Positions 2,756-64,000 of a stretch of DNA of 64,000 nucleotides are shown here, piece by piece. Source of the DNA: Pseudonocardia asaccharolytica DSM 44247 = NBRC 16224 (GTDB lineage: Bacteria; Actinomycetota; Actinomycetes; Mycobacteriales; Pseudonocardiaceae); the NCBI RefSeq assembly GCF_000423625.1, contig NZ_AUII01000002.1:1-64000 (forward strand), in the 5' to 3' direction. The notes beneath the pieces were generated by a model. The model worked only from the letters and a program-made list of their open reading frames with translations. It had not been told where the DNA came from and made no database searches. The translations under genes were made by a program, and so were the position numbers. How positions within the stretch are numbered: the stretch's first letter is position 1; every line of letters begins with the position of its first letter.

Positions 2756-5700
2756 CTAACCGTGCGCGAGATCGGCAAACCGGCTGTAGTGCAGCTGGTG
2801 CGCCACGGTGATGGTGTTGGTGGGCCCGTTGCGGTGCTTGGCCAGGATCAGATCGGCCTCGCCCGCGCGCGGGTCATCGCGCTCGAACGCATCGGGGCGG
2901 TGCAGCAGGAGCACCATGTCGGCATCCTGTTCGATCGAGTTGTGCGCGGCGACGCCGTTGGCGATGAAGTTGTGGGTGCCCGGCACCGTGGCGTCATAGA
3001 CCGGCTGCTTGCCGAGGCTCGTGATCTCCACGATCTCGTCCCAGAACACGTCGTTGGTCGCGAGCATCTCCAGGCCCGAGTCGAGCAGGACCGCGGCCGC
3101 CCGGGCCAGCGGGGCGCGGCTGGGCGAGTGCTTCCACGCCGGCGAACTGCTCGCACGTTCGAGTCTCGACGCCGTCGAGCCGCAGAAGCGCGAGCCCATC
3201 GCGGTGGCGACGTCGCGGTGTGTCATCCGCCGAACGGCGAGCAGCGCGCGCACCCGCGGCCACACCGCAGGCGGGATGGTGTCGAGATTCGTGTTGGCCG
3301 CGATCGCCCCTAGCCGCTCCGCCACCTCGTGTGCCGCCGCACCGCGGACGCCGTGGACACCGATGAGCTGGACGAATGCCCGCTGGTGCTCCGAACCGGT
3401 GATGTGCAGGTGCCAGCGGTCGCGGTGTCCCGCCTCGCGGATCCGTTTGCTGCGGCTGAGGATCCCGAACCGCAGCAGGAGGCGGGAGACGTCGTCGACC
3501 AGCCTGCGGCTCGTCGACACGTAGGAGATCCGGTCGAGATCGGCGTGCTCGCCCCAGCTCACCGATCCGTCGGTGGCCCAGAGGTGGCTCAGGAACAGCG
3601 CGAGCTGCTCGTCGGGGAGCGCGAAGACCGGCTCGGGGACGAACGAACGGGCTGCCACGGCGACCACCTCCCGGTTCGCCTCGTCCGTTCCGGCGTACCG
3701 CAGTGGCCGGCGTCGGACGAACGAACCGTCACCGATCAGGTGGGCCAGCAGGACGACGTGCTCCTCCGGCATCGACACGGCCTGCAGCGGTGCCGGGATC
3801 CGCCGGGGGGTCGCGAGCCGCTCACCAGGGCCCAGCTCACCGAGCGGGCACCACCCGTCCATCGTGAGGAACGGGTGGTTCGCGGTCGCCTCGACCTCGC
3901 GGCCCGAGGCCAGACGCAGCCGGAAGACCTCCTTCACCCCGCTCGGGAAGACCGCCGTCATCTCCCGCGGAACCATCCGCATCCGCTCGTCGAGCGACCA
4001 CAGCCGCACGCCGGGCTCGCCGGACGCGAGCAGCTCACCGAACGTCACCTCGGCGCCCGTATCGGCCCTCAGCAGGCGCGTGCCGGCGGTCAGGCAACCC
4101 GACTCGCGGAGGTCGGCGAGCATCGGCCGCTTGTCCGTGCGCTGCTCGGGGCCCCGGTTGAGCTGGCTGATCGCGACGATCGGCACCTCGAGCTCCTTGG
4201 CCAGCAGCTTGATCTGCCGGGAGAACTCGCTGACCTCCTGTTGACGGGACTCGACCCGCCGGCCCGAGGTCATCAGCTGCAGATAGTCCAGGATGATCAG
4301 CTTGAGGTCGTTGCGCTGCTTGAGCCTGCGCGCCTTGGCCCGAACCTCCATCAGGGTCAGGTTCGGCGAGTCGTCGATGAACAGCGGCGCCTCGCTGATC
4401 TCGCTCATCCGTCGGGCCATCCGGGTCCAGTCGTCGTCGCTCATCCGGCCCGCGCGCATATCGGCCAACCGGATCCGCGACTCGGCCGACAGCAGCCGCA
4501 TGACGATCTCCGACCGGCTCATCTCCAGGGAGAACACCACGCTGGTCAGCCCGTGGCGGACCGAACAGGAGCGGGCAAAATCCAGACCCAGTGTGGAGTT
4601 GTGCGTGGGCACCATCGACCGGCCGGCGAGGTACAGGTGCTCGCCGTTGTCGACCTCGATGCAGCGCACGGGGACGCTCGGCACGGAGCGCACGGCCACC
4701 ACGTAGCGGGGACGAGCGCGGTGCGCGTGCTCATCGCTGCGCTCCTTGTGGACGCGCCGCTTGCGATCGAGGCGGAACACCTCGTCCTCGGTGGTGAAGT
4801 CGAGCGTGTAGGCGACCGATGGCTCCTCGCTGCGTCCGCGGACCCGCGTGCGCGTGGTGGAGCAGCGGTGGCCGAGCCCGACGACGAGCTCGCGCACTCC
4901 GTCGAACAACCGCCGGTTCATGGCGCTGAACTGCAGGTTACCGGTGCTCGTCACCGTGCCGCCGGTGTCCATGAGGCCGGCGAGGAGTTCCCGCCGCTGC
5001 CGCGCGGAAGCACGCAGGTACTCCGCGGGAATGTGCTTGTCGCCGAGGACCCGGAGAGCCCGCAGCCGAGCCTGGGTCAGGCGGCGGCCCTCACTCTCGA
5101 CGTACTCCGCGATCTCCGGATCGTCGGAGGTGAACGCGGCCGTATCGCTCGATCCATCGCCCAGCCAGACACCGAGCGCATACGGCGCGACGGGCAGGAC
5201 CCGCTCGGGCAGCCGCAACGGCGCGCAGGTCTCGACGGAGTGGTTGAGCCCGCCATCGGCGGTGGCACACCGCAGGGTCGCGGCAATCTCCTCGGTGGTG
5301 CGGACGGCGGGCAGCACCGCCGGCGCCCCGCCGCGATCACGCGCCTCCTGAGACGCCCGCCGCGCGGCCCGGTCGGCCGTGAGCCACTGATGCTGGGCGT
5401 CGGCGACGATCACCGTGCCGTCGGAGAACTCGACCTCGCAGCACGGTCGGCCGATCATCACCTCGGTGGCCGCGACAACTCTGGTCGGCCGGCCGTCCGC
5501 GCCGAACAGCGCGTCACCGACGCCGACCTCGCCCATGGTGGTCCACCCCATGGGCGTGGGCAGTGGCGTGTCGAGTGCGAGCGCCTTCCCCAACCCTGGC
5601 CGCGCCGCGACGACGATCATCTGCCCGGGGTGCAGGCCGTTGGTGCACGCGTCGAGATCGGCGAAGCCGGTGGGTACCCCGAGGGCCACCCCACCGCGGG

Positions 5701-6298
5701 TGGCGATCGCGTCGATCTCGTCCATCGTGGGCTGCAGCAGTTCCTCGAGCGGGACGTAGTCCTCGCTCGTCGAGCGCTCGGTGACGTCATAGATGGCGCT
5801 CTGCGCGCGATCGACCACCTCGTCGACCTCGGCGCCCTCCGCGCCGTGGTAGCCCAGCTGCACGATCCGCGTGCCGGCCTCAACCAGCCGGCGCAGGATC
5901 GCCTTCTCCGCGACGATCTCCGCGTAGTACGCGGCATTGGCCGCGGTCGGCACGGTGGCGATCAAGGTGTGCAGATAGGGGGCACCACCGAGCCGGATCA
6001 GCTCGCCGCGACGCTGCAGCTCCGCCGACACCGTGACCGCGTCGGCAGGCTCACCGCGACCGTAGAGATCGAGAATGCACTCGTAGACGGTCTGGTGCGC
6101 GGGCCGGTAGAAGTCCTCCGGATGCAACACCTCGACCACGTCGGCGATTGCGTCCTTGCTCAGCAACATGCCGCCCAACACGGACTGCTCGGCCGTGAGG
6201 TCCTGCGGGGGCTGACGGTCGAACGGCGCCTCGGAACCACCCTCGTCCGCGCGCACCGCGCGCGGACGCCCGGCCAGCCGATCATCCGTCAGAGCCAT
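2756..6298 (-). CDS. dnaB: Replicative DNA helicase DnaB carrying two inteins
   Basis: The precursor is 1180 residues: exteins 1-238, 568-734 and 1121-1180 join to a 465-residue DnaB, the normal size. DnaB is the ring helicase that unwinds DNA at the fork. The N-domain is at about 25-180. Walker A GLGK is interrupted directly after Lys238 by intein 1, and splicing restores GKST. The second intein interrupts LRESG/SIEQDAD. Walker B is LKLIILDYLQL. ATG at 6298 (MALTDDR) is chosen over an upstream start at 6349: it matches the actinobacterial DnaB N-terminus and has GGGGTGA 8 bp upstream. No active helicase can form until the P-loop intein leaves, so splicing could gate replication. DnaA boxes lie upstream. 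Confidence 0.97.
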   Translation of the reverse strand: MALTDDRLAGRPRAVRADEGGSEAPFDRQPPQDLTAEQSVLGGMLLSKDAIADVVEVLHPEDFYRPAHQTVYECILDLYGRGEPADAVTVSAELQRRGELIRLGGAPYLHTLIATVPTAANAAYYAEIVAEKAILRRLVEAGTRIVQLGYHGAEGAEVDEVVDRAQSAIYDVTERSTSEDYVPLEELLQPTMDEIDAIATRGGVALGVPTGFADLDACTNGLHPGQMIVVAARPGLGKALALDTPLPTPMGWTTMGEVGVGDALFGADGRPTRVVAATEVMIGRPCCEVEFSDGTVIVADAQHQWLTADRAARRASQEARDRGGAPAVLPAVRTTEEIAATLRCATADGGLNHSVETCAPLRLPERVLPVAPYALGVWLGDGSSDTAAFTSDDPEIAEYVESEGRRLTQARLRALRVLGDKHIPAEYLRASARQRRELLAGLMDTGGTVTSTGNLQFSAMNRRLFDGVRELVVGLGHRCSTTRTRVRGRSEEPSVAYTLDFTTEDEVFRLDRKRRVHKERSDEHAHRARPRYVVAVRSVPSVPVRCIEVDNGEHLYLAGRSMVPTHNSTLGLDFARSCSVRHGLTSVVFSLEMSRSEIVMRLLSAESRIRLADMRAGRMSDDDWTRMARRMSEISEAPLFIDDSPNLTLMEVRAKARRLKQRNDLKLIILDYLQLMTSGRRVESRQQEVSEFSRQIKLLAKELEVPIVAISQLNRGPEQRTDKRPMLADLRESGCLTAGTRLLRADTGAEVTFGELLASGEPGVRLWSLDERMRMVPREMTAVFPSGVKEVFRLRLASGREVEATANHPFLTMDGWCPLGELGPGERLATPRRIPAPLQAVSMPEEHVVLLAHLIGDGSFVRRRPLRYAGTDEANREVVAVAARSFVPEPVFALPDEQLALFLSHLWATDGSVSWGEHADLDRISYVSTSRRLVDDVSRLLLRFGILSRSKRIREAGHRDRWHLHITGSEHQRAFVQLIGVHGVRGAAAHEVAERLGAIAANTNLDTIPPAVWPRVRALLAVRRMTHRDVATAMGSRFCGSTASRLERASSSPAWKHSPSRAPLARAAAVLLDSGLEMLATNDVFWDEIVEITSLGKQPVYDATVPGTHNFIANGVAAHNSIEQDADMVLLLHRPDAFERDDPRAGEADLILAKHRNGPTNTITVAHQLHYSRFADLAHG
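2939..4096 (-). other. DnaB intein 2 (class 1, with intact-looking LAGLIDADG endonuclease)
   Basis: A 386-residue intein (precursor residues 735-1120) occupies the RESG/SIEQ site, the same site as the Synechocystis and M. tuberculosis DnaB inteins. It starts with Cys1 (CLTAGTRLL). Block B TANHPFLT carries Thr71 and His74. Two dodecapeptide motifs both retain their aspartates: LLAHLIGDGS (Asp123) and LFLSHLWATDGS (Asp176). Block F is VYDATVPGTHNFIANG, and block G ends in His-Asn followed by Ser+1. A segment at 280-312 (LLAVRRMTHRDVATAMGSRF) looks like a helix-turn-helix and may help bind the target site. Splicing and homing functions both appear complete. Confidence 0.93.
4598..5584 (-). other. 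DnaB intein 1, class 3 (WCT) intein in the P-loop
   Basis: A 329-residue intein (precursor residues 239-567) lies between Lys and Ser of the Walker A motif. It begins with Ala, not Cys or Ser, so the usual first nucleophile is missing. It carries the class 3 triad instead: Trp67 in block B (AQHQWLT), Cys308 in block F (VPVRCIEV) and Thr327 in block G (MVPTHN). It ends His-Asn before Ser+1. This is the position and class of M. smegmatis DnaBi1, described as a redox-responsive intein. The endonuclease domain looks decayed: the second dodecapeptide reads LLAGLMDTGG, with Gly where the catalytic Asp belongs, and the stretch between motifs is short. Confidence 0.92.
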
Positions 6299-6530
6299 AC
6301 GCAGAGTCACCCCGCTTTCCATTGTATCGAACATCAGTTCGATCCGCATCTGGCCGGTCGCCCCGCGCGACTACCGATCGGTGAACGGTCGGCGTCCTCA
6401 GGCGGGCCTGCGCACTCCGGAGAACGTGAGGCTAGGTGGGTTCGCGGCCGAGATCAAAAGAGCGTGTGCACCAACCTGGGGACTAGCTGGGGACTAATCC
6501 GCCCACACCCAGGACAGGTTCGGGAGAACG

Positions 6531-6843: not shown

Positions 6844-7293
6844 TCAGCCCGCGACGACCGCGATATTCAGATCGGTGGTCACCTCGGGGTGCAGCCGAAC
6901 GGTCACCGCGTGCGTCCCGACCGTCTTGATGTGGCCGGGCACCTCGACCGCGCGGCGGTCGAGTGGCGGACCACCCGCGGTCCGCACCGCCTCGACGACG
7001 TCGGCCGCGGTGACCGAGCCGAACAACCGCCCGGAGTCGCCTGCCGCCTTCGCCGTGACGGTCACCGAGAGGCCGCCCAGCTGTCCGGCGACCTCCTTGG
7101 CGTGGTCGAGGTCGCGGATCTGGCGAGCCTTCTGGGCCCGCTGGATCGCGGCGACCTGCTTCTCTGCCCCCCGGGTAGCCGGGATCGCCAGCTTGCGTGG
7201 CAGCAGGAAGTTGCGGCCGTAGCCGTCCTTCACCTCGACGATATCGCCGGGCGCACCCAGGTTGGGTACGTCGGCGGTGAGGATGAGCTTCAC
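6844..7293 (-). CDS. rplI: Ribosomal protein L9
   Basis: This 149-residue large-subunit protein binds 23S rRNA. The N-domain is typical: [12 protein letters not shown], then [26 protein letters not shown] connecting helix ([25 protein letters not shown]) leads to the C-domain with KLFGSV-like [15 protein letters not shown] at 7293 is chosen, with AGGAGG 6 bp upstream. It is the last gene of rpsF-ssb-rpsR-rplI and is followed by a strong hairpin. Confidence 0.97.
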
Positions 7294-7304
7294 TGCGGTC
7301 CTCC

Positions 7305-7541
7305 TCAGCGGGCCGTCGAGGTGTAAGGCAGCAGGGCGACCTCGCGCGAGTTCTTCACCGCGACCGCGACGTCCCGCTGATGCTGACGGCAGTTGCCGGT
7401 GACCCGGCGAGCCCGGATCTTGCCGCGGTCGGAGATGAACTTCCGTAGCAGGCCGGTGTCCTTGTAGTCGATCTCCTGGGCCTTGTCCTTGCAGAAGGCG
7501 CACACCTTCTTCTTCGGCTTGCGCAGGACGGGCTTGGCCAT
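7305..7541 (-). CDS. rpsR: Ribosomal protein S18, zinc-binding type
   Basis: This 78-residue small-subunit protein pairs with S6. It has CAFC (Cys14, Cys17) plus GNCRQHQ (Cys51, His54), so it is the C+ (zinc-containing) paralogue rather than the zinc-free form many Actinobacteria express when zinc is low. The core [26 protein letters not shown] is canonical. It lies 11 bp upstream of rplI in the same operon. Confidence 0.97.
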
Positions 7542-7594
7542 TCGTGGTGCTCCTGGAGGGTCTTAACGGGTCTCAGAGTGGTCTCGGCGTGACT

Positions 7595-8086
7595 TCAGAA
7601 GGGGGGCTCGTCGTCGGCGGCGGGGCCGCTGCCCGCGGGCGGCGCGGAACCCCACGGGTCGTCGTAGCCGCCGGCGGCAGAACCGCCGCCACCGCCACCG
7701 AAGCCGCCGCTGCCGCTCCCCCGGCTGACCTTGTTGACCTTGGCGGTGGCGTAGCGGAGCGAGGGACCGATCTCATCGACCTCAAGCTCGATGACGGTGC
7801 GCTTCTCGCCCTCGCGGGTCTCGAAGGAGCGCTGCCGCAGCCGGCCGGTCACGATCACCCGCATCCCGCGGGTGAGGGTTTCGGCGACGTTCTCCGCCGC
7901 CTGGCGCCAGATGTTGCAACGCAGGAATAGTGCCTCACCGTCGCGCCACTCGCCGGTCTGGCGGTCGAACATACGCGGGGTGGAGGCCACGGTGAAGTTG
8001 GCCACCGCGGCGCCCGATGGGGTGAATCGCAACTCCGGGTCGGCGGTGAGATTGCCGACCACGGTGATGACAGTCTCGCCAGCCAT
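7595..8086 (-). CDS. ssb: Single-stranded DNA-binding protein
   Basis: This 163-residue SSB has an OB fold at about 1-115 ([54 protein letters not shown]). A Gly-rich linker leads to the acidic tip DDEPPF, the docking site for replication and repair partners. It protects single strands at the fork and tetramerises. It sits between rpsF (11-bp gap) and rpsR in the usual actinobacterial order. Confidence 0.97.
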
Positions 8087-8096
8087 GGCGATCTCC

Positions 8097-8414
8097 TCAG
8101 CTCGCGGCCGGGGCGGGGGTGCGCTTGCGCTGGTCGCGGCGGAGCACCTTGGTGCGCAGGACCGACTCGTTCAGACCGAGTTGCCGGTCGAGCTCGGCCA
8201 CGGTGGCGGGCTCGGCCGTGATCTCGAGGACGGCATAGATGCCCTCGGAGTGCTTCGCGATCTCGTAGGCGAGCCTGCGCTTGCCCCACACCTCGACCTT
8301 CTCGACGGACCCACCGTCGGACCGGACGACGTTGAGGAAGGTTTCCAGGGACGGCGTCACAGTGCGCTCGTCCAGGCTCGGGTCGAGAATGACCATGAAC
8401 TCGTAATGACGCAT
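8097..8414 (-). CDS. rpsF: Ribosomal protein S6
   Basis: This 105-residue protein begins [16 protein letters not shown] and continues with [24 protein letters not shown], the canonical S6 core. It forms a heterodimer with S18 on 16S rRNA. ATG at 8414 is chosen over GTG 8423, because AGGAGG ends 13 bp before the ATG but lies almost on top of the GTG. The ribosome-binding site appears sequestered by a leader hairpin, described separately. Confidence 0.97.
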
Positions 8415-8477
8415 GAGAACCACACACCTCCTATGGACTCGTAGCGGTCGCGGTCCACCCGCGACAGGAGGTTCTCA
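8414..8477 (-). promoter_or_regulatory. rpsF mRNA leader hairpin covering the ribosome-binding site
   Basis: In the rpsF transcript TGAGAACCTCCT (complement of 8466-8477) can pair with AGGAGG (8427-8432) and, after a 7-nt bulge, with TTCTCA (8414-8419), which includes the A of the start codon. Inside lies a perfect 7-bp hairpin (GTCGCGG/CCGCGAC, 8447-8465). S6:S18 complexes are known to bind their own leader in many bacteria, so translational autocontrol is plausible. No conserved protein-binding loop was proven here. Confidence 0.55.
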
Positions 8478-13023: not shown

Positions 13024-15599
13024 CCTGCCCCCGGCGTTGCCGGCCCCCGATGGTTCGGGACGTTCGGTCGCGGTTCGGCGAAGCTGTTGGGCTGGAAGTC
13101 GAAGTTCTCGCCGTTCGGGAACGTGAACTCGCTCTGGTCGTCCCGGTCACGGGAGCGACGGTTGTTCCGGGTGGTCTCGGTCGAGTCCGAGTCCGACCGG
13201 CTCGATGCGCTCGAGCTCGCCGTGGAGCTGCTCGAGCCGGTCGAGTCCGCTCCGGTCACCTCCGCGTACGGGGCCTGCCCGATCGGGACGAACCTTGAGA
13301 ACTGCTGCTTCGGCGTGCCCCTGAGCGCGGCGTTCATGTACGCCTGCCAGATCGAACCGGGCAGCATTCGCCCGTAGATGGGCCGTCCGGACGCGTTCTT
13401 GATCGGCGAGTTGTCGTCGGTGCCGACCCAGACCGCAGTGGATATCGACGGGGTGTAACCGATGGTCCAGGCGTCGTTGTTCTGGCCCTGGATCCGGCTC
13501 TGCACGGTGCCGGTCTTGGCCGCCACCGGCCGCCCGTCGGACAGCGCGATCCGCGAGGAGGACGCGACATCGGTCATCGACTCGGTCACGTTGCGCGCCA
13601 CCTTCTGGGAGAACACCTGCTGGCCCGGCACCGAGCTGAGGTCGAACAGCACCCGGCCGTCGGCAGCGGTCACCTTGGTGACCATATGCGGTTCGCGATG
13701 CACCCCGTCGGCGGCGAAGGTACCGAAGGCCGACGCCATATCGACGGGGTGAACCTCCTTGTCTCCCAGGGAGATACCGCCGGTGGGGTTGGGCAGAAGG
13801 TTCTCCGGGATGCCGGCCTTGTGCGCGGCCTCGGTCACCGCCGCGGGCCCGATCTGCATGGTGATCTGATAGAAGACGGTGTTGATCGACTGGGTCATCG
13901 CGGTCTTCACCGTGCAGCTCGGGCAGCTGAACCCCTCGGAGTTCGACACCTTGACCCCGCCGAAGGTCTGCGGTGACGAGCCGTCGAACACCGAGCCGAG
14001 GCCGATCGGGTTCGGCTGCTGCAGCGCCGCGGCCAGCACGAACGGTTTGAACGACGAACCGGGCTGCTTGAGCACCTGTGCGTAGTCCAGGCCGACGCCG
14101 TTGTCCCCGCCGTAGTAGGCCAGGATTGCGCCGGTCTGGGGATCGAGGGACACCAGCGCCGTGCGCAGGTTGTCCGGCTGCCCCTTCGTGATCTTCTTGA
14201 CGGCGTTGACGGCGTCCTGCTGCTTGTCGGGCTCGATCGTCGTCGTGATCGTCAGACCCTCGGTGTTGATCTCCGCGTCGGTGATGCCGCGTTCCTCGAG
14301 CTCCGCACGCACCTGGTGGTAGATGTGCCCACGGCTGTCCCCGGGGATGCCCCCGCCCACCGGCTCGGGTTGCTTCCACCGGGGGAACGTCGCCCCGGCT
14401 CGATCGGCTGGGGAGAGCCAGCCCTGCGCCACCATCCCGTCGAGCACGAAGTTCCAGCGCTCGAGGGACTTCTCCGGGTTCTTCGCCGGATCCCAGCGCG
14501 ACGGCGACTGGATCAGCCCGGCCAGCATCGCGCCCTCGGAGACCGTCAGGTCCTCGACGGTCTTGTCGAAGTAGGCCTGGCTCGCCGCCTGCACGCCGTA
14601 TCCCCCGCGGCCCAGATAGATGACGTTGAGGTAGTTCTCGAGGATCTGGTCCTTGGTCTGCTCCTTGGACACCTTGACCGCGAGCACGATCTCCTTGTAC
14701 TTGCGCCACAGCGAGAACTCGTCGGCTCCGGTGGTCACCTTCACGTACTGCTGGGTGATCGTGGATCCGCCACCGATTCCGCCGGTGAGCTGGTTCCACA
14801 CCGCGCGCGCGATGCCGGTGATATCGAAGCCGGGATTGGAGTAGAACGAGCGGTCCTCCGCGGAGAGCACCGCGTTGCGGACGTGTTCGGGCACCTGGTC
14901 GAGCGTCACCTTGGTGCGGTTGACGTTGTCCGGGCGCACCGTGGCCAGCGGGCTGCCGTCGGCGTAGGTGAAGGTGGCCACCTGGGTGATCGCCGCGTCG
15001 TCGGCCGTCGGGACGGCGAAGATCATCCAGCCGATGACGAACGCCAGCAGCGGGCCGATGACGGCGAGGCCGGCAAGGACGTAGAGGGTCCGGCGGATCC
15101 GTCGCCACATGGTCTTCCGCCGCTCTTCGGAGCCGGGCCGGTCGGCGCTTGCCGCGCCGGGCTGCGAACTGCCGGAGCGGGGCTCGGGCCCCCCGGGGCC
15201 GTGGCGCTCGGCGAGCGCGAGCCCCGGTGCCCGCGCGCCCTGCTCACCGCCGCCCGTGTCGTGGGTGAGCAGCCCGGCCTCCTCGGGCCGGCTCGCGCCG
15301 CGCCGGTCCGGCGGGGGATGTCCCGGCGCAGGGCCCGCCGGCGGGCCGGGCGGGCGAAGGGGCGGTGGCACGCGGCCGGGCGGAGGGCCACCGGGCGAAG
15401 GGGCTGGCCGCGGCGGTGGTCCGCCCGGCCGCCGCGGTGGTCCGCCCGGCCGCGGCGGTGGTCCGCCCGGCCGCGGTGGCGCGGCGGGGCCGACCGGGCC
15501 GTGCGGACGCGGTGGTCCGTCCGCCGGCGGCGGGACAGCCCGGACACCGTCGTTCCGGGGGCGCCGCTCGAACCGGGGGTCGCGCTGATCACTCACCAT
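13020..15599 (-). CDS. ponA1: Class A penicillin-binding protein (PonA1-type)
   Basis: This 859-residue bifunctional peptidoglycan synthase has a Pro/Gly-rich cytoplasmic tail (1-165) and one transmembrane helix at about 171-195. The GT51 transglycosylase follows, with [12 protein letters not shown] (catalytic Glu248) and [11 protein letters not shown]. The transpeptidase has SSFK (Ser515-Lys518), SIN (571-573) and KTGT (695-698). A Ser/Thr-rich C-terminal tail ends it. It polymerises and cross-links lipid II outside the membrane. Its neighbours, DUF5318 (Rv0049-like) upstream and GT87 downstream, match the mycobacterial ponA1 locus. The start codon at 15599 is GTG or ATG-adjacent (MVSDQRDPR). 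Confidence 0.93.
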
Positions 15600-58953: not shown

Positions 58954-59004
58954 TCGGCTTGCTGAGCCGATCAACGCGCCGAGCATCGAGGAGAACTCGC
59001 CCTC

Positions 59005-60051
59005 GTGAGCGACACGAACAGCAGCGACGAGGAACCCGACGGCGGGCGGTTGGCAACGGGGGGTCAGCCCGCCGGTAAGGCCGGTGCCGACGGCCCCTCG
59101 AAGAGTGAGAAGACCGAAGGGACGGTGCCCGAGCAGACGAAGCCGGACGAGGCCGAACCTCCCGTCTCCCCGGCCGCCGAGGGTACGTCTGACGAGGCCA
59201 AGCCGTCGCCGGGTGCCGCTTCCAACAGCGACCGTGCAGACGGTGCCGGGCCTGCGCCAACCGCGGCCGCGAGCTCGGGCTCGGGCAATGGTCGTTCCGA
59301 TGGTGCCGGGCCGGTTTCGCCGGGATCGGACGATCCGGCCGGGGGGCGGCGGCCCACGCCGGCCCCGCGGCAGGCCGCCGCCCCCCATGCGACGCCCCCG
59401 CCCACCCGCGCCGGCGCCGACTCGAAGCCGGCACCGCCCCCCGGTCCGGCCGCCGAGGCGCCGCCGCCGTGGCGGCGGATACCGGGTGAAGACATCAGCG
59501 AGCCTCCGACGGTCGTGCACAGCAGGCCGGTGGCGGGCGGATTGCTCGACGCACCGACGGCGTTCATCGATCGCCCCACCGAGGTGCTGACGGCACCGGA
59601 CCATGCGGGCGGCGCCGAGGGCGGGCACGACGGTTCCGGTGCCGAGGCCAACGGCAGCGTGTCGACGGTGCGAACGTCCCGCGGCCGTCCGCCCCGCCAG
59701 GCCGCCCTGCAACTCAAGCGCCTCGACCCGTGGTCGGTGCTCAAGCTCGCCGGGGTGCTGGCCGTGGTGCTGTTCTTCATCTGGCTGGTCGCGGTGGGCG
59801 TGCTCTACGGAATCCTCGACGGGATGGGCGTGTGGGACCGCCTCAACGGCACCTACGCCGACCTGGTGTCAGGGGAGACCCACAGCGGCAGCACGCTGAT
59901 CAGCGCCGGCCCGGTCTTCGGTTTCGCCGCGGTGGTCGGTGCGATCAACAGTCTGTTGTTCGCCGTCGCGCTGACGATCGGGGCGTTCGTCTACAACGTC
60001 TCGGCCGATCTCGTCGGAGGCATCGAGGTCACCCTCTCGGAGCGCGATTGA
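59005..60051 (+). CDS. DUF3566 membrane protein (Rv0007-type)
   Basis: This 348-residue protein has a disordered, Pro/Ser/Gly-rich cytosolic N-terminus (1-225) and a DUF3566 domain with two helices. These are SVLKLAGVLAVVLFFIWLVAVGVLYGIL and a second ending FAAVVGAINSLLFAVALTIGAFVYNVSADLVGG. The family is always next to gyrA and tRNA-Ile in Actinobacteria; its function is unknown, perhaps division related. GTG 59005 follows GAGGAG. Confidence 0.92.
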   Translation: MSDTNSSDEEPDGGRLATGGQPAGKAGADGPSKSEKTEGTVPEQTKPDEAEPPVSPAAEGTSDEAKPSPGAASNSDRADGAGPAPTAAASSGSGNGRSDGAGPVSPGSDDPAGGRRPTPAPRQAAAPHATPPPTRAGADSKPAPPPGPAAEAPPPWRRIPGEDISEPPTVVHSRPVAGGLLDAPTAFIDRPTEVLTAPDHAGGAEGGHDGSGAEANGSVSTVRTSRGRPPRQAALQLKRLDPWSVLKLAGVLAVVLFFIWLVAVGVLYGILDGMGVWDRLNGTYADLVSGETHSGSTLISAGPVFGFAAVVGAINSLLFAVALTIGAFVYNVSADLVGGIEVTLSERD

Positions 60052-60064
60052 CCGGTCGTGGGCT

Positions 60065-60101
60065 CCGCACCGGCCGAGGCGCGAACCCGGAGCCGGTGCG
60101 G
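60065..60101 (+). terminator. GC-rich hairpin after DUF3566
   Basis: CCGCACCGGC (60065-60074) pairs perfectly with GCCGGTGCGG (60092-60101), beginning 14 bp after the stop. There is no T-run. Confidence 0.65.
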
Positions 60102-60140
60102 GGCGCCGCGACGGGTTGATGTAAGGTCGGTCCCACGTAC

Positions 60141-60214
60141 GGGCCCATAGCTCAGTTGGTTAGAGCGCGTCGCTGATAACGACGAGGTCGCTGGTTCAAA
60201 TCCAGCTGGGCCCA
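60141..60214 (+). tRNA. tRNA-Ile (GAT anticodon)
   Basis: The 74-nt cloverleaf has acceptor GGGCCCA pairing with TGGGCCC, discriminator A, D-arm AGCTCAGTTGGTTAGAGC, anticodon GAT at 60175-60177 and T-loop GGTTCAAATCC. CCA is not encoded. Confidence 0.98.
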
Positions 60215-60261
60215 CTCCCCCGCGGTGCCGGTCACAGAGACCCTCTTGAGGACGTGATCTC

Positions 60262-60372
60262 ATGAAGAAGTTCTTCGCTCTCGCGGCTGTGGCCGGTGCG
60301 GTTTTCCTGGTCGTCACCAGGCTGCGTGCCCGCCAGGAGACCGATCTCTGGCACGAGGCCACCAGCCGCTGA
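60262..60372 (+). CDS. DLW-39 family small membrane protein
   Basis: This 36-residue protein reads MKKFFALAAVAGAVFLVVTR and then LRARQETDLWHEATSR. One transmembrane helix is followed by a tail with the DLW motif. The family is named for this motif and sits between tRNA-Ile and tRNA-Ala in Actinobacteria. Its function is unknown. Confidence 0.85.
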   Translation: MKKFFALAAVAGAVFLVVTRLRARQETDLWHEATSR

Positions 60373-60414
60373 CGAGCGCCGCGTCGCTGGGCGGGTAACG
60401 TCTCCGCTCAGCAC

Positions 60415-60487
60415 GGGGACGTAGCTCAATTGGCAGAGCACCGCCTTTGCAAGGCGGGGGTTAGGGGTTCGATTCCCCTCGTCTCCA
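60415..60487 (+). tRNA. tRNA-Ala (TGC anticodon)
   Basis: The 73-nt cloverleaf has acceptor GGGGACG/CGTCTCC with the G3-U70 wobble that identifies alanine tRNA. The anticodon TGC is at 60448-60450, the T-arm is GGGGTTCGATTCCCC and the discriminator is A. It is a likely integration site for the element remnants that follow. Confidence 0.98.
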
Positions 60488-60570
60488 CGACACTGACCAG
60501 GCATAACGAGGACGTTTCCGATCGGTAGTCGATCAATGACTGCGGTGCTGACGGCGAGTATGATCGCGCC

Positions 60571-60806
60571 GTGTCGCCGAAGGACTCGAAGTCGCGCGCG
60601 TGGCTCCATCCGGCGGCGCGGCAACTCGTTCCAGGTCGCCGTCTATGTCGGACTAGATCCGCTCACAGAACGTCGGCTCTACCTGACCGAGTCGACGACG
60701 ACCGAGGCGGAAACACGACGGGTCCTGCGCCGGCTCGCCCTCGACCCGGCCACGGTCGAGGTTCTGGTCGAGCACCGCGGCCGTTACGAGGCGTTCTACC
60801 GGGGCA
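60571..60806 (+). pseudogene. Tyrosine recombinase (integrase) N-terminal fragment, frameshifted
   Basis: It starts GTG 60571 (MSPKDSKSRA) with TATGAT 6 bp upstream, a leaderless layout. After a GCGCGCG run at about 60594-60600, homology continues in another frame: GSIRRRGNSFQVAVYVGLDP, then LTERRLYLTESTTTEAETRR. That is the Arm-type DNA-binding domain of phage and ICE integrases. It stops after about 75 residues, so the catalytic domain is gone. Its place 83 bp past tRNA-Ala fits an integrated element that decayed. Confidence 0.7.
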
Positions 60807-61001
60807 TCACGACGTCGCCACACCCCACACGAGGACATTGTCGGCGGCTCCGGTGGCGGGGTTGCGATAATCGGTGCAGGTGATGAGGGCGATCGCCGGC
60901 ACGGGTTGGGGTGCCCAGATCTGGACGGGGAAGTCCTCGAAGGTCTTCGGGAAGGTGACGGTGGCGCGCACCTGGTAGTACCGTCTGCGACCACTTCTCA
61001 A
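60807..61001 (-). pseudogene. Sortase-like C-terminal fragment
   Basis: The minus-strand frame ends YYQVRATVTFPKTFEDFPVQ, then IWAPQPVPAIALITCTDY and NVLVWGVATS. LITC resembles the catalytic TLxTC motif of actinobacterial class E/F sortases, and the flanking strands agree. Only about 55 residues remain, with no N-terminus, no signal and no catalytic His. It abuts the integrase fragment head to tail at about 60806. Confidence 0.45.
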
Positions 61002-61015
61002 GCACGGGCTGATCC

Positions 61016-61199
61016 AGGAAGATCAACAACCGGGTCCGGAGCCTGCGCCGGGCGATCGGTGCAATCAGCGAGCAGGCGCCCCGGCTCGGCGCCCACCTCG
61101 AGAAGTCGGTCCCGCACCGGCCGACACTGCATCTACCTGCCGGAGCCGCCCAGCGCCCTGACCTGGACGGTGGAGCTCGACCGCCCAGAGGCTCCCTGA
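61016..61199 (+). pseudogene. C-terminal fragment of an unrecognised protein, frameshifted
   Basis: One frame reads RKINNRVRSLRRAIGAISEQ, then APRLGAHLEKSV. The next frame continues RTGRHCIYLPEPPSALTWTVELD to a stop at 61197-61199. The two pieces fit as one protein split by a frameshift near 61100. I do not recognise the family. Confidence 0.4.
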
Positions 61200-61256
61200 C
61201 CCCTCCCGCGAGGCGAGTGGAACGAATCGTTCCGTCGCGTTGAACGCCTCCCGGGT

Positions 61257-61587
61257 GTGGGGAGCGGATCGGACGAGGGTCGGCGAGCACGCCCGTGCGG
61301 GGTCAGCCATGTCGCCGTGGTGACGGGCGACCTCGACGGCTACCGCCGGTTCTACAATGACGTCATCGGCCTCCGGACGAACATGGTCCTCGGCGCCGGG
61401 GCCGGCCACGGCCGCCAGGCGGTGCTCGACGCCGGCGAGGTCATGCAGGAAGTCTGACCCGCGAGGGTCGGAATCCCCCGGCTTCAGTCGTGGGGAGGAA
61501 GTCAACACGTCGATGTTCGAACGCGGACGGCTCGACCACCTGGGCTTCACCGTCCCCGACGAGGCCGTGCTCGACGCGCTCGACATG
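61257..61587 (+). pseudogene. VOC (glyoxalase) family fragment, frameshifted and truncated
   Basis: The first part (61257-61457) reads VSHVAVVTGDLDGYRRFYNDVIGL, the start of a vicinal-oxygen-chelate domain with its His ligand. A frameshift follows, then RGRLDHLGFTVPDEAVLDAL (about 61519-61587), the start of the second VOC half. The remaining half-domain is missing and the frame runs directly into hydrolase sequence. Confidence 0.6.
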
Positions 61588-62154
61588 CAGGGCCCCTACG
61601 TCCTGGCCGCCCACTCCTTCGCCGGCAACATCGCCCGCGTCTTCGCCGGCGAGCACGCCGCCGGCGTCAAGGGCATCGTGTTCGTCGACGTGCTCTCCCC
61701 CGAGCTCCGGGCCCAGATGACGCCGGAGGAGTGGCGAACGTGGGTCGGCGCCGACAACCGCACGCCGGCGCAGATCGCGGCCTACCCAGACCTGGAGCGG
61801 TACGACTTCGACGCCAGCCTCGACCAGGTGGAGCAGGTGGAGGCGGCCGATCCGCTGGGCCCGATGCCGGTCGTCGTGCTGACGGCCAGCGTGAAGTTCG
61901 CCGAGCTGGTGCCCAAGTACCTCGACGAGGGCCTGCTGCCCCCGGACGTCCCCCGCAACTTCGGCGAGGTGATCGACCGGACCAACACCGCCGCCCAGGC
62001 CGAGCTCGCCGGATACTTCCCCGGGTCGATGCGGATCACCGACACCGGCGCGGGGCACAACATCATGATCGACAACGCCCCCGTGGTCATCCAGGCGATC
62101 GAGGACGTCCTCGCCGCCGTCCGGGCCGGCCGCACCACGCTCACCGGCGGCTGA
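61588..62154 (+). pseudogene. Alpha/beta hydrolase C-terminal part fused to the VOC fragment
   Basis: From DMQGPYVLAAHSFAGNIARVFAG onward this is an alpha/beta hydrolase: nucleophile elbow AHSFAG, cap region, and the catalytic-His region MRITDTGAGHNIMIDNAPVVIQAIEDVL. The N-terminal core strands and oxyanion region are absent, replaced by the VOC piece in the same frame (open from ATG 61513 to 62154). The join falls at a shared DAL, suggesting deletion between short homologies. Whether the 213-residue chimera is translated is unknown. Confidence 0.6.
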
Positions 62155-62175
62155 CGACCACATCGCCCTGGCTCT

Positions 62176-62771
62176 GGAGGTCGACGGGCGGACCCTGTCC
62201 TGGAGTGCAGTGGCATCGGGAGCCCGACGGTGATCCTGCAGTCCGGCTACGGGAACTCCGGCGACGTGTGGAGCCTCACCGACACGACGTCTCCGGCGGT
62301 GTTCCCCGCCCTCGCGGAGACCAACCGGGTCTGCACCTACGACCGGCCCGGATCGATGATCACCACGACGAACGCGAGCGGGGCCCCGACCCTCGCTGAG
62401 ACGGCCCGCCGGGGCCGCAGCGACTCGGCGCCCATGCCCCGTGATCCCGCCGATGTGGTGACCGAGCTCCACGACCTGCTCGCCGCTGACGTGCCGGGGC
62501 CCCACGTGCTCGGTCGGAGAGGGTGCGGGTGAACAGCCTCGACCCGAGCCTGGTGGCCGGCTACAAGCTCGAGCCCTATGACCTCGGCACCCTGTTCACC
62601 GAGGCCGAGGTCGATGCGATCAACGCCGCGCAGTGGGAGGGCCAGGCGCAGTGGGCGGCCAGCGTGCCCGGCGCCGAGGTGATCACCGTCCCCGACACCA
62701 CCCACTACGGCCAGAACCAGCGTCCCGACGCCGTCGTCGAGGCGATCCGCCAGGCGATCGCCCGCAGCTGA
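62176..62771 (+). pseudogene. Second alpha/beta hydrolase, internally deleted and frameshifted
   Basis: Three pieces in different frames read as one hydrolase: EVDGRTLS; LECSGIGSPTVILQSGYGNSGD through VCTYDRPGS to LLAADVPGPHVLG; then VNSLDPSLVAGYKLEPYDLG to the C-terminal IRQAIARS (stop 62769-62771). The central part with the nucleophile GHSxGG is deleted at about 62510-62525. It is clearly inactive. Confidence 0.65.
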
Positions 62772-62820
62772 CCGGGCACCGACCGCACGACCGCGGGGCC
62801 CGACGGAGGAGAGCCTGACC

Positions 62821-62916
62821 ATGCCCACCCCCACCGCACCGGATCCGACCCCACCGACCCAGGAAGATTGCGTAGAGCCGCTAAAGCACGGGTCGATGAA
62901 GTCGCGCTTGGCTTGA
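62821..62916 (+). CDS. Short ORF, possible orphan N-terminus
   Basis: ATG 62821 has a good GGAGGAG site 10 bp upstream. The ORF codes for 31 residues (MPTPTAPDPTPPTQEDCVEP...). It looks like the start of a gene cut off by rearrangement. The rest of 62772-63060 shows nothing I can name. Confidence 0.3.
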   Translation: MPTPTAPDPTPPTQEDCVEPLKHGSMKSRLA

Positions 62917-63060
62917 CTGCCGCGCAGCCCATTTCGATCGACGTTCGTCGACACCGCCGGGCTGTCGGCATACCCGGCTGAACCCTGCGCTGGCCGGGTG
63001 AAACGGGATCCTTCGATCGGCCCCTTCCCGTCCCCGCTCGCGCCTCCCACGCTGAGAGCC

Positions 63061-64000
63061 ATGGAGGCTCGTCCGGTCGTGGACGTCCCGGTGACAGGCC
63101 ACGCGTGCAGCGACGATGTCACCGTCGGTCGAGACCGGGAGCTGGCCGTGCTGCACAGTGTGTTCGACGCTGTCAGTGCTGGCCGACCGACCATTGTGCT
63201 GCTCACCGGAGAGGCCGGGATCGGCAAGACCCGCCTCGCCGACGAGGCGGCGCTGATGGCAAGGAGCCGGCGGATGCGGGTACTGCGCGGCGAAGCGGAC
63301 ACCTCGACGCGCCAACCCATGGAGCTGTGGCGGGGGGTGTACCGCTCGCTCCACCTCGTTCCAGCCAGTGATCCGATACTGTCGGCGGCGGAGCGCCGGT
63401 GGGAGCATCTCGAGTCGCTGGTCGAAGCGCTGATCTCGGCCGCGCCGGCAGTGGTGGTCCTCGAAGACCTGCACTGGGCGGATGCGATGGCGGTCTGGTT
63501 GCTCGAGCATCTGCCGCGGGCGCTGGACGGCGCGCGAGTGGCATTCGTGGCGACGAGCCGGAATGCAGAGCCGGACATGCCGCGCCTCGACACGCTGCGC
63601 CGGGTCTCGCGGATGATGCCGCTCGCTGGGCTCGGCGTCGATGCAGTGCGCCAGCTCGCCGCCGCGGAAGCGCCGGGGTCAGTCGACGCCGCTGGCCTCC
63701 ACGCCCGGACCGGTGGCAATCCCCTGTTCGTCAAGGAGCTCGTGCGCTCTCCCGACGGCAGCGGGGTCATCGGCGAAGTTCTCCAGCGGTCCCTCGACCG
63801 GTTCGACACCGAGAACGCAGCGGTGCTGGCGACCGCCGCGGTCGCCGGTGCAGGCGCCCCGCTGTCCGTGCTCGCCCTTGCATGCTCGTGCACGACGGAC
63901 GTGGTGGTCGAACGCCTCGAGCCGGCAGTCCGCGAGGGCGTGCTCGACGACGTTTCACCGGCAGGCGTCCGTTTCCATCACGCGCTGCTCGCCGAGGCGG
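63061..64000 (+). CDS. AAA-ATPase regulator (LuxR/MalT-like, LAL type), C-terminus cut by window edge
   Basis: The first 313 residues of a large STAND-type ATPase are visible. Walker A is GEAGIGKT (50-57), Walker B is VVVLEDLHWAD (131-141), the sensor region is VAFVATSRNAEP, then ARTGGNPLFVKEL. This layout is typical of LAL regulators of about 900 residues with a C-terminal LuxR HTH. That end is outside the window, so the DNA-binding part is assumed. ATG 63061 is the first in-frame start. It lies directly beyond the broken-gene region. Confidence 0.8.
   Translation, partial: MEARPVVDVPVTGHACSDDVTVGRDRELAVLHSVFDAVSAGRPTIVLLTGEAGIGKTRLADEAALMARSRRMRVLRGEADTSTRQPMELWRGVYRSLHLVPASDPILSAAERRWEHLESLVEALISAAPAVVVLEDLHWADAMAVWLLEHLPRALDGARVAFVATSRNAEPDMPRLDTLRRVSRMMPLAGLGVDAVRQLAAAEAPGSVDAAGLHARTGGNPLFVKELVRSPDGSGVIGEVLQRSLDRFDTENAAVLATAAVAGAGAPLSVLALACSCTTDVVVERLEPAVREGVLDDVSPAGVRFHHALLAEA

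Follow-up and report, generated by a model that had tools for sequence, protein, structure and literature searches.

The window, a 64,000-nucleotide stretch of Pseudonocardia asaccharolytica DNA from a genome assembly of 5.05 Mb in 71 contigs, carries a gene for the replicative helicase DnaB that is interrupted by two inteins (Table 1). The ORFs upstream of it (6844-8423) resemble rplI, ssb and rpsF when named by eye, and these genes are the usual neighbours of a chromosomal dnaB. A comparison of positions 59000-64000 of the window with plasmid DNA gave no match. Intein 2, with the termini and junction CLTAG...VAAHN↓SIEQDADM (arrows mark the points at which intein and extein meet), is of a different class from intein 1, which is the subject of what follows.

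Table 1. Parts of the dnaB gene in the window and residues of intein 1 discussed in the text
Feature	Position	Strand	Remarks
DnaB replicative helicase precursor	2756..6349	(-)	1197 aa, two inteins; Pfam DnaB N and C domains; NCBIfam PRK07773, 1202 bits
Alternative start of the precursor (second in-frame ATG)	6296-6298		Possible
N-extein	5585..6349	(-)	Last residues ARPGLGK, Walker A through Lys
Intein 1	4598..5584	(-)	Class 3, site DnaB-b, 329 aa
C48 and C49 of intein 1	5438..5443	(-)	C48 is the counterpart of the M. smegmatis disulfide partner Cys48
Block B of intein 1: D62, H65, W67	5384..5401	(-)	W67 is the W of WCT
Linker and LAGLIDADG homing-endonuclease region of intein 1	4733..5308	(-)	Residues about 93-284, limits by eye
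D143 of intein 1	5156-5158	(-)	Motif 1 Asp, kept
G208 of intein 1	4961-4963	(-)	Replaces the motif 2 Asp
C308 of intein 1	4661..4663	(-)	Block F initiating nucleophile, C of WCT; M. smegmatis Cys118
Y318 of intein 1	4631..4633	(-)	Counterpart of the M. smegmatis zinc ligand Tyr128
T327, H328, N329 of intein 1	4598..4606	(-)	T327 is the T of WCT
Middle extein	4097..4597	(-)	First residue is the +1 Ser of Walker A (4595-4597); ends LRESG
Intein 2	2939..4096	(-)	Class 1 type (Cys1...HN↓S), site DnaB-a, 386 aa, LAGLIDADG domain
C-extein	2756..2938	(-)	Begins SIEQDADM

The preliminary description had placed a class 3 (WCT) intein in the P-loop of this DnaB, starting with Ala, keeping a Trp67/Cys308/Thr327 triad, splitting Walker A between Lys and Ser and related to the Mycobacterium smegmatis intein of the same site; residues, junctions and fold agree with it on each of these points. 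Class 3 inteins are defined by a Trp in block B, a Cys in block F and a Thr in block G, together WCT (PMC3196547), and alignment with 6bs8 and 233 other inteins locates W67, C308 and T327 at these positions. The first residue is Ala rather than Ser, Thr or Cys, D62 and H65 are both present, and the intein ends in H328 and N329 followed by a nucleophilic Ser+1. The junctions, ARPGLGK↓ALALD...VPTHN↓STLG, identify the DnaB-b allele, and the empty sites of relatives read GK-ST at this point. Intein 1 clusters with class 3 inteins by both sequence and fold, its predicted structure being a confident model with the class 3 intein fold, and W67, C308, T327 and N329 are invariant across the 234 distinct inteins of the lineage that we compared. 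Inserts of this type are known, and intein 1 adds another DnaB-b class 3 intein to them. In splicing, C308 would attack the N-junction at its Lys-Ala bond, the chain would then be transferred to Ser+1, and N329 would cyclise with assistance from H328, to leave an intact Walker A (GLGK-S). As Walker A is split in the precursor, ATP hydrolysis by this DnaB probably awaits splicing; the published authors made the same inference, leaving partial activity of the precursor open (PMC6195587). The earlier claim, that without splicing there is no helicase activity, can reasonably be made for this gene alone: a phage-type DnaB free of inteins is encoded elsewhere in the genome, as described below.

The insert is optional in the genus Pseudonocardia and its distribution is patchy. 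At E 0.001 or better, intein 1 has a match in at least 107 of 200 genomes of the family (that of the window included; class 3 status was checked for some). In the genus, 61 of 62 genomes matched the N-extein and 58 had a readable P-loop, G233 (many copies), G235 and G247 being set aside; an intein occupies the P-loop in 13 of these 58, and the other 45 show only directly joined GK-ST. Inteins at both DnaB sites together were read in the window and in the genomes G104 and G234, site a being unreadable in some copies and its readings across the genus unreliable where '?' or other letters appear.

An active LAGLIDADG homing intein has a catalytic Asp in both of its motifs. In intein 1, D143 is present and position 208 is Gly, with motif 2 reading GLMDTGG as against MDTDG in Pseudonocardia nigra; both Asp residues are retained in 33 of 81 DnaB-b inteins from the family. 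Comparison with P. nigra gave dN/dS values of 0.175 and 0.109 for the two splicing parts, 0.253 for the linker-endonuclease part and 0.074-0.076 for the exteins, and the endonuclease part gave 0.223 against L299, which with the P. nigra intein (L107, 0.253) is one of the two nearest by tree path. Purifying selection acts on the splicing half of intein 1, presumably as this dnaB depends on it. The endonuclease has lost one catalytic Asp, and the loss looks recent given the intact motif 2 of P. nigra and the dN/dS pattern; purifying selection on the endonuclease part shows that it was useful until recently, and it could still be so. We suggest that intein 1 is a selfish element that probably no longer homes by itself, a reading based on one residue in one assembly.

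A search of the source genome with intein 1 led to three further places, in genes for a VirB4-like ATPase and a dCTP deaminase (both on contig C31) and for PhoH (contig C8). The VirB4-like ATPase (AAA_10 domain) is split at GSGK↓S and the deaminase at EGK↓S, by copies that are 59% and 48% identical to intein 1, respectively. These two class 3 inteins lie on the minus strand of locus L008 (about 3306-4493 and 14513-15550), each at GK↓S and each with both endonuclease Asp residues kept. The PhoH intein (L009:3674-4753) is class 3-like (Ala1, W, C, T, HN↓T), and C48 and D62 are absent from it; contig C20 holds a class 1-type intein in a ribonucleotide-reductase-like ORF (host named by eye). Among 243 inteins of the lineage placed in one tree, all six VirB4-like inteins form one clade and all four dCTP-deaminase inteins another (SH-aLRT 99 each). 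Intein 1 falls among the DnaB inteins; by path its nearest are those of P. nigra and other Pseudonocardia, but the fork that contains it is weak (82) and it is in none of the starred sets. The tree was built from 114 columns, with 124 of its 239 inner branches undecided, and speaks to the coarser transfer history only. Recent transposition within the genome among the DnaB, VirB4-like and dCTP-deaminase inteins was considered and rejected, as the latter two sit in clades of their own, which offers no hint that either jumped recently from this DnaB. The pattern fits site-specific homing in each gene better than recent jumping in the genome. Literature searches, judged by title and the start of the abstract, returned no paper about a VirB4 intein and nothing on the topic for inteins in Pseudonocardia. 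Among the viral inteins, the GK↓S/T site is found in 50 of 69 rows; some viral class 3 inteins (e.g. L199, L209, L213, L226, L227, L235) have Pro or Cys first and sites other than GK↓S/T. In the genome G071 (L065, contig C34), a class 3 intein with Gly1 is located at RKNGK↓TTLAGG, in a host that is probably a phage terminase large subunit (by eye).

The M. smegmatis DnaB-b intein had been described to us as oxidant-responsive, and the published record bears this out: H2O2 produces a Cys48-Cys118 disulfide in DnaBi1 of M. smegmatis, and precursor builds up in the cells (PMC6195587). Zinc is bound in the same intein by Cys118, the backbone of Val119 and Tyr128 (PMC7360933), and reactive chlorine species reversibly block the inteins of both M. 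smegmatis and Mycobacterium leprae (PMC8557812). The counterparts in intein 1 are C48, C308, I309 and Y318, which supply the Cys48 equivalent and block F Cys of a DnaBi1-like redox pair. By analogy, stress gating of intein 1 is plausible.

The 2018 M. smegmatis paper twice calls Cys48 non-conserved (PMC6195587), and in M. leprae, whose intein also has it, Cys48 is said to lie outside the conserved splicing blocks (PMC8557812). In our comparison, C48 is among the 17 columns that never vary in the 92 family inteins, together with D62, H65, W67, C308, T327, H328 and N329. It is Cys in every bacterial DnaB-b intein of two sets (81/81 and 72/72) and in the single viral DnaB intein, in all six VirB4-like inteins, all four from dCTP deaminase, both other bacterial inteins and 61 of the 68 other viral inteins. 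The 234 distinct inteins comprise 92 from family genomes and the window and 142 from named genomes and viral contigs, 17 identical sequences having been removed from 251. The family set holds 29 new loci (L018-L046) and 60 places among the matches listed, with several places, many of them near-duplicates, skipped, and further relatives were taken as 80 of 543 in one scan and 80 of 200 in the other. The peptide patterns used to scan named genomes and viral contigs exclude position 48 itself. Of 160 loci, L250 was omitted as its C-end is missing, and the PhoH intein of L009, with no match at the C-end, was treated separately; L219 was scored as lacking C48 although a Cys sits one position earlier. 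Host genes were called by short flanking motifs, with Pfam confirmation for the copies in the source genome only. In the parts of the literature consulted, we found no statement that C48 is conserved across the lineage, which is not proof of its absence from print.

Nine further copies from the genus brought the count to 162 of 163 DnaB-b inteins examined, and one of them, L336 (G213:C55), rules out full invariance of C48 in DnaB-b. This 251-residue intein has Thr48 and retains D62, H65, W67, the block F Cys and the terminal THN. A search of the G213 genome found no dnaB match other than the gene bearing L336, so L336 should splice. Thr is, however, one of seven replacements of Cys48 tried in M. 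smegmatis, all of which abolished splicing (PMC6195587), and L336 may therefore be compensated, poorly active or mis-assembled. Since C48 is kept whatever the host gene, it is a feature of the lineage and is not specific to replication, and its conservation does not by itself demonstrate sensing.

Our preferred reading is that C48 and D62 would both be functional members of the active site in this lineage, with redox sensitivity accompanying that role. In its full form, in which C48 is kept for splicing, works with D62 near the N-junction and is redox-sensitive as a side effect, we give it about even odds. D62 is missing in four of the seven inteins without C48 and in four of the 227 with it (234 inteins; Fisher p 1.9e-5, a value that ignores relatedness), and the tree requires a minimum of five changes at C48 and four at D62. 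PhoH-type inteins that carry the W, C and T have neither residue (5/5 readable; 5 of 30 loci passed the PhoH pattern). The loss of splicing in all seven M. smegmatis substitutions provides a simpler cause for the conservation of C48 than does sensing (PMC6195587). Against this, the independent losses are few, and L336, found later, has D62, which changes the first count to four of eight and, if L336 splices, weighs against an absolute requirement for C48. The authors of the M. smegmatis study did not see Cys48 taking a direct part in catalysis (PMC6195587), and a split class 3 intein of atypical kind, in which Met replaces the Trp of WCT, splices without the only other cysteine of its N-fragment (PMC7891396). 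That cysteine occupies a non-conserved position; its dispensability indicates that class 3 chemistry as such needs no second cysteine.

The alternative is that intein 1 is a genuine switch, in which oxidants would join C48 to C308 and zinc would bind C308 and Y318, precursor would build up, replication would pause, and the benefit would retain the intein in the population. The M. smegmatis disulfide with its precursor accumulation (PMC6195587), the zinc site (PMC7360933) and the reversible block by reactive chlorine (PMC8557812), with counterpart residues in intein 1, are what one would expect of such a switch, and conservation of C48 is equally expected of a sensor under selection; a need for C48 in splicing explains that conservation as well as selection for sensing does. 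However, the 45 of 58 readable Pseudonocardia genomes that do without the intein indicate that there is no general requirement for replication pausing. C48 is retained just as well in the VirB4-like and dCTP-deaminase inteins and in the majority of the lineage's other viral inteins, the M. smegmatis substitutions point to splicing, and a DnaB intein of the same genus has Thr48. We consider an evolved switch rather unlikely. Still less probable, in our judgement, is a wider version, in which C48 and the block F Cys would form a thiol trap throughout the GK↓S/T class 3 inteins and a single oxidant pulse could arrest three hosts at once. If it were true, the replicative helicase, the VirB4-like transfer ATPase and the dCTP deaminase of one genome would be held unspliced and then jointly released by reduction, so that replication, DNA transfer and dUTP/dTTP supply would stop and resume together.

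Other DnaB proteins bear on how far the cell depends on splicing. On contig C12 of the source genome, L337:9647-11053 encodes an intein-free DnaB-like protein of 468 residues with an intact GARPAVGKS loop; it matches phage DnaB (phrog_19), adjoins a phage-type replication initiator and is only 40% identical to the N-part of the chromosomal DnaB. Farther off lie genes for an exonuclease VIII homologue and for a protein that has a RecT-like part, and the locus is probably a prophage or integrated element. In the draft source genome we found no second dnaB of the chromosomal type. Elsewhere in the genus, at least three of the 13 intein-bearing genomes have a second, intein-free chromosomal-type dnaB (G219:C2, L310; G223:C69, L320; G228:C14, L325; 93-98% identical in the exteins compared), and at least four of the 45 without the intein have a second copy; these are lower bounds, weaker or partial second matches (e.g. 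G202:C159, G050:C2, G214:C77, G169:C2) being left out. The second dnaB of G219 is probably on a plasmid, given the ParA- and ParB-like ORFs (named by eye) that adjoin it on a 281-kb contig. Immediately after the insertion site, the second copies of G219, G223 and G228 and the gene on G169:C5 read STVG or STIG for STLG, a change that might alter recognition by the homing enzyme. The reading that intein 1 is decaying and splices poorly in a cell served by another DnaB could draw on the C12 protein and on the intein-free genes of the three other genomes, but every splicing residue of intein 1 is intact, its splicing parts are under purifying selection, and the C12 gene is distant from chromosomal dnaB and has a phage-type neighbour, which makes decay very improbable.

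Taken as a whole, we favour the explanation, at a probability of roughly 0.88, that intein 1 is a presumably splicing DnaB-b class 3 intein that has probably lost homing and whose predicted redox and zinc susceptibility is inherited. The C48-C308 pair would make trapping by oxidants chemically possible, and C308 with Y318 would do the same for zinc, in each case as in M. smegmatis. In our view intein 1 would have this susceptibility by descent, as a member of the GK↓S/T class 3 lineage, and not as a demonstrated adaptation for halting replication. The published remark that Cys48 is non-conserved needs correction in light of 162 of 163 DnaB-b inteins and most inteins of the lineage in other hosts. 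The question is then no longer which species evolved a sensor for replication but why C48 is needed in this lineage, and the natural Thr48 intein L336 may let splicing and redox response be separated without a designed mutant.

Among the closest known systems is M. smegmatis DnaBi1, a DnaB-b class 3 mini-intein (PDB 6bs8, 6own) at the same GK↓S Walker A site (PMC6195587). It likewise has Ala1, C48, D62, H65, W67, the block F Cys, the Tyr zinc ligand and the Thr-His-Asn end, and the model of intein 1 overlays it at 1.2 Å over 125 residues with 68% identity. DnaBi1 is a mini-intein of 139 residues, whereas intein 1 has 329 and an endonuclease domain. Position 49 is Tyr in DnaBi1 and Cys in intein 1; among the 81 family DnaB-b inteins it is Tyr in 56, Phe in 19, His in five and Cys only in the window, and L179 is the sole other of the 234 distinct inteins with the Cys-Cys pair at 48-49. 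Intein 1 has three further cysteines (C106, C120, C241) in the linker or endonuclease part, and these, with C49, make its oxidation chemistry harder to predict than that of the M. smegmatis intein with its two cysteines (PMC6195587). The P. nigra DnaB-b intein is of the same length (329 residues) and at the same site, with 78% identity over residues 1-329, but keeps both LAGLIDADG Asp residues and has Phe49, where intein 1 has Gly208 and Cys49. The GK↓S/T class 3 inteins of the VirB4-like ATPase, dCTP deaminase and viral proteins belong to the same WCT lineage. Intein 2 resembles the class 1 intein of the M. smegmatis DnaBi2 type in its site a, Cys1 and +1 Ser (PMC6195587).
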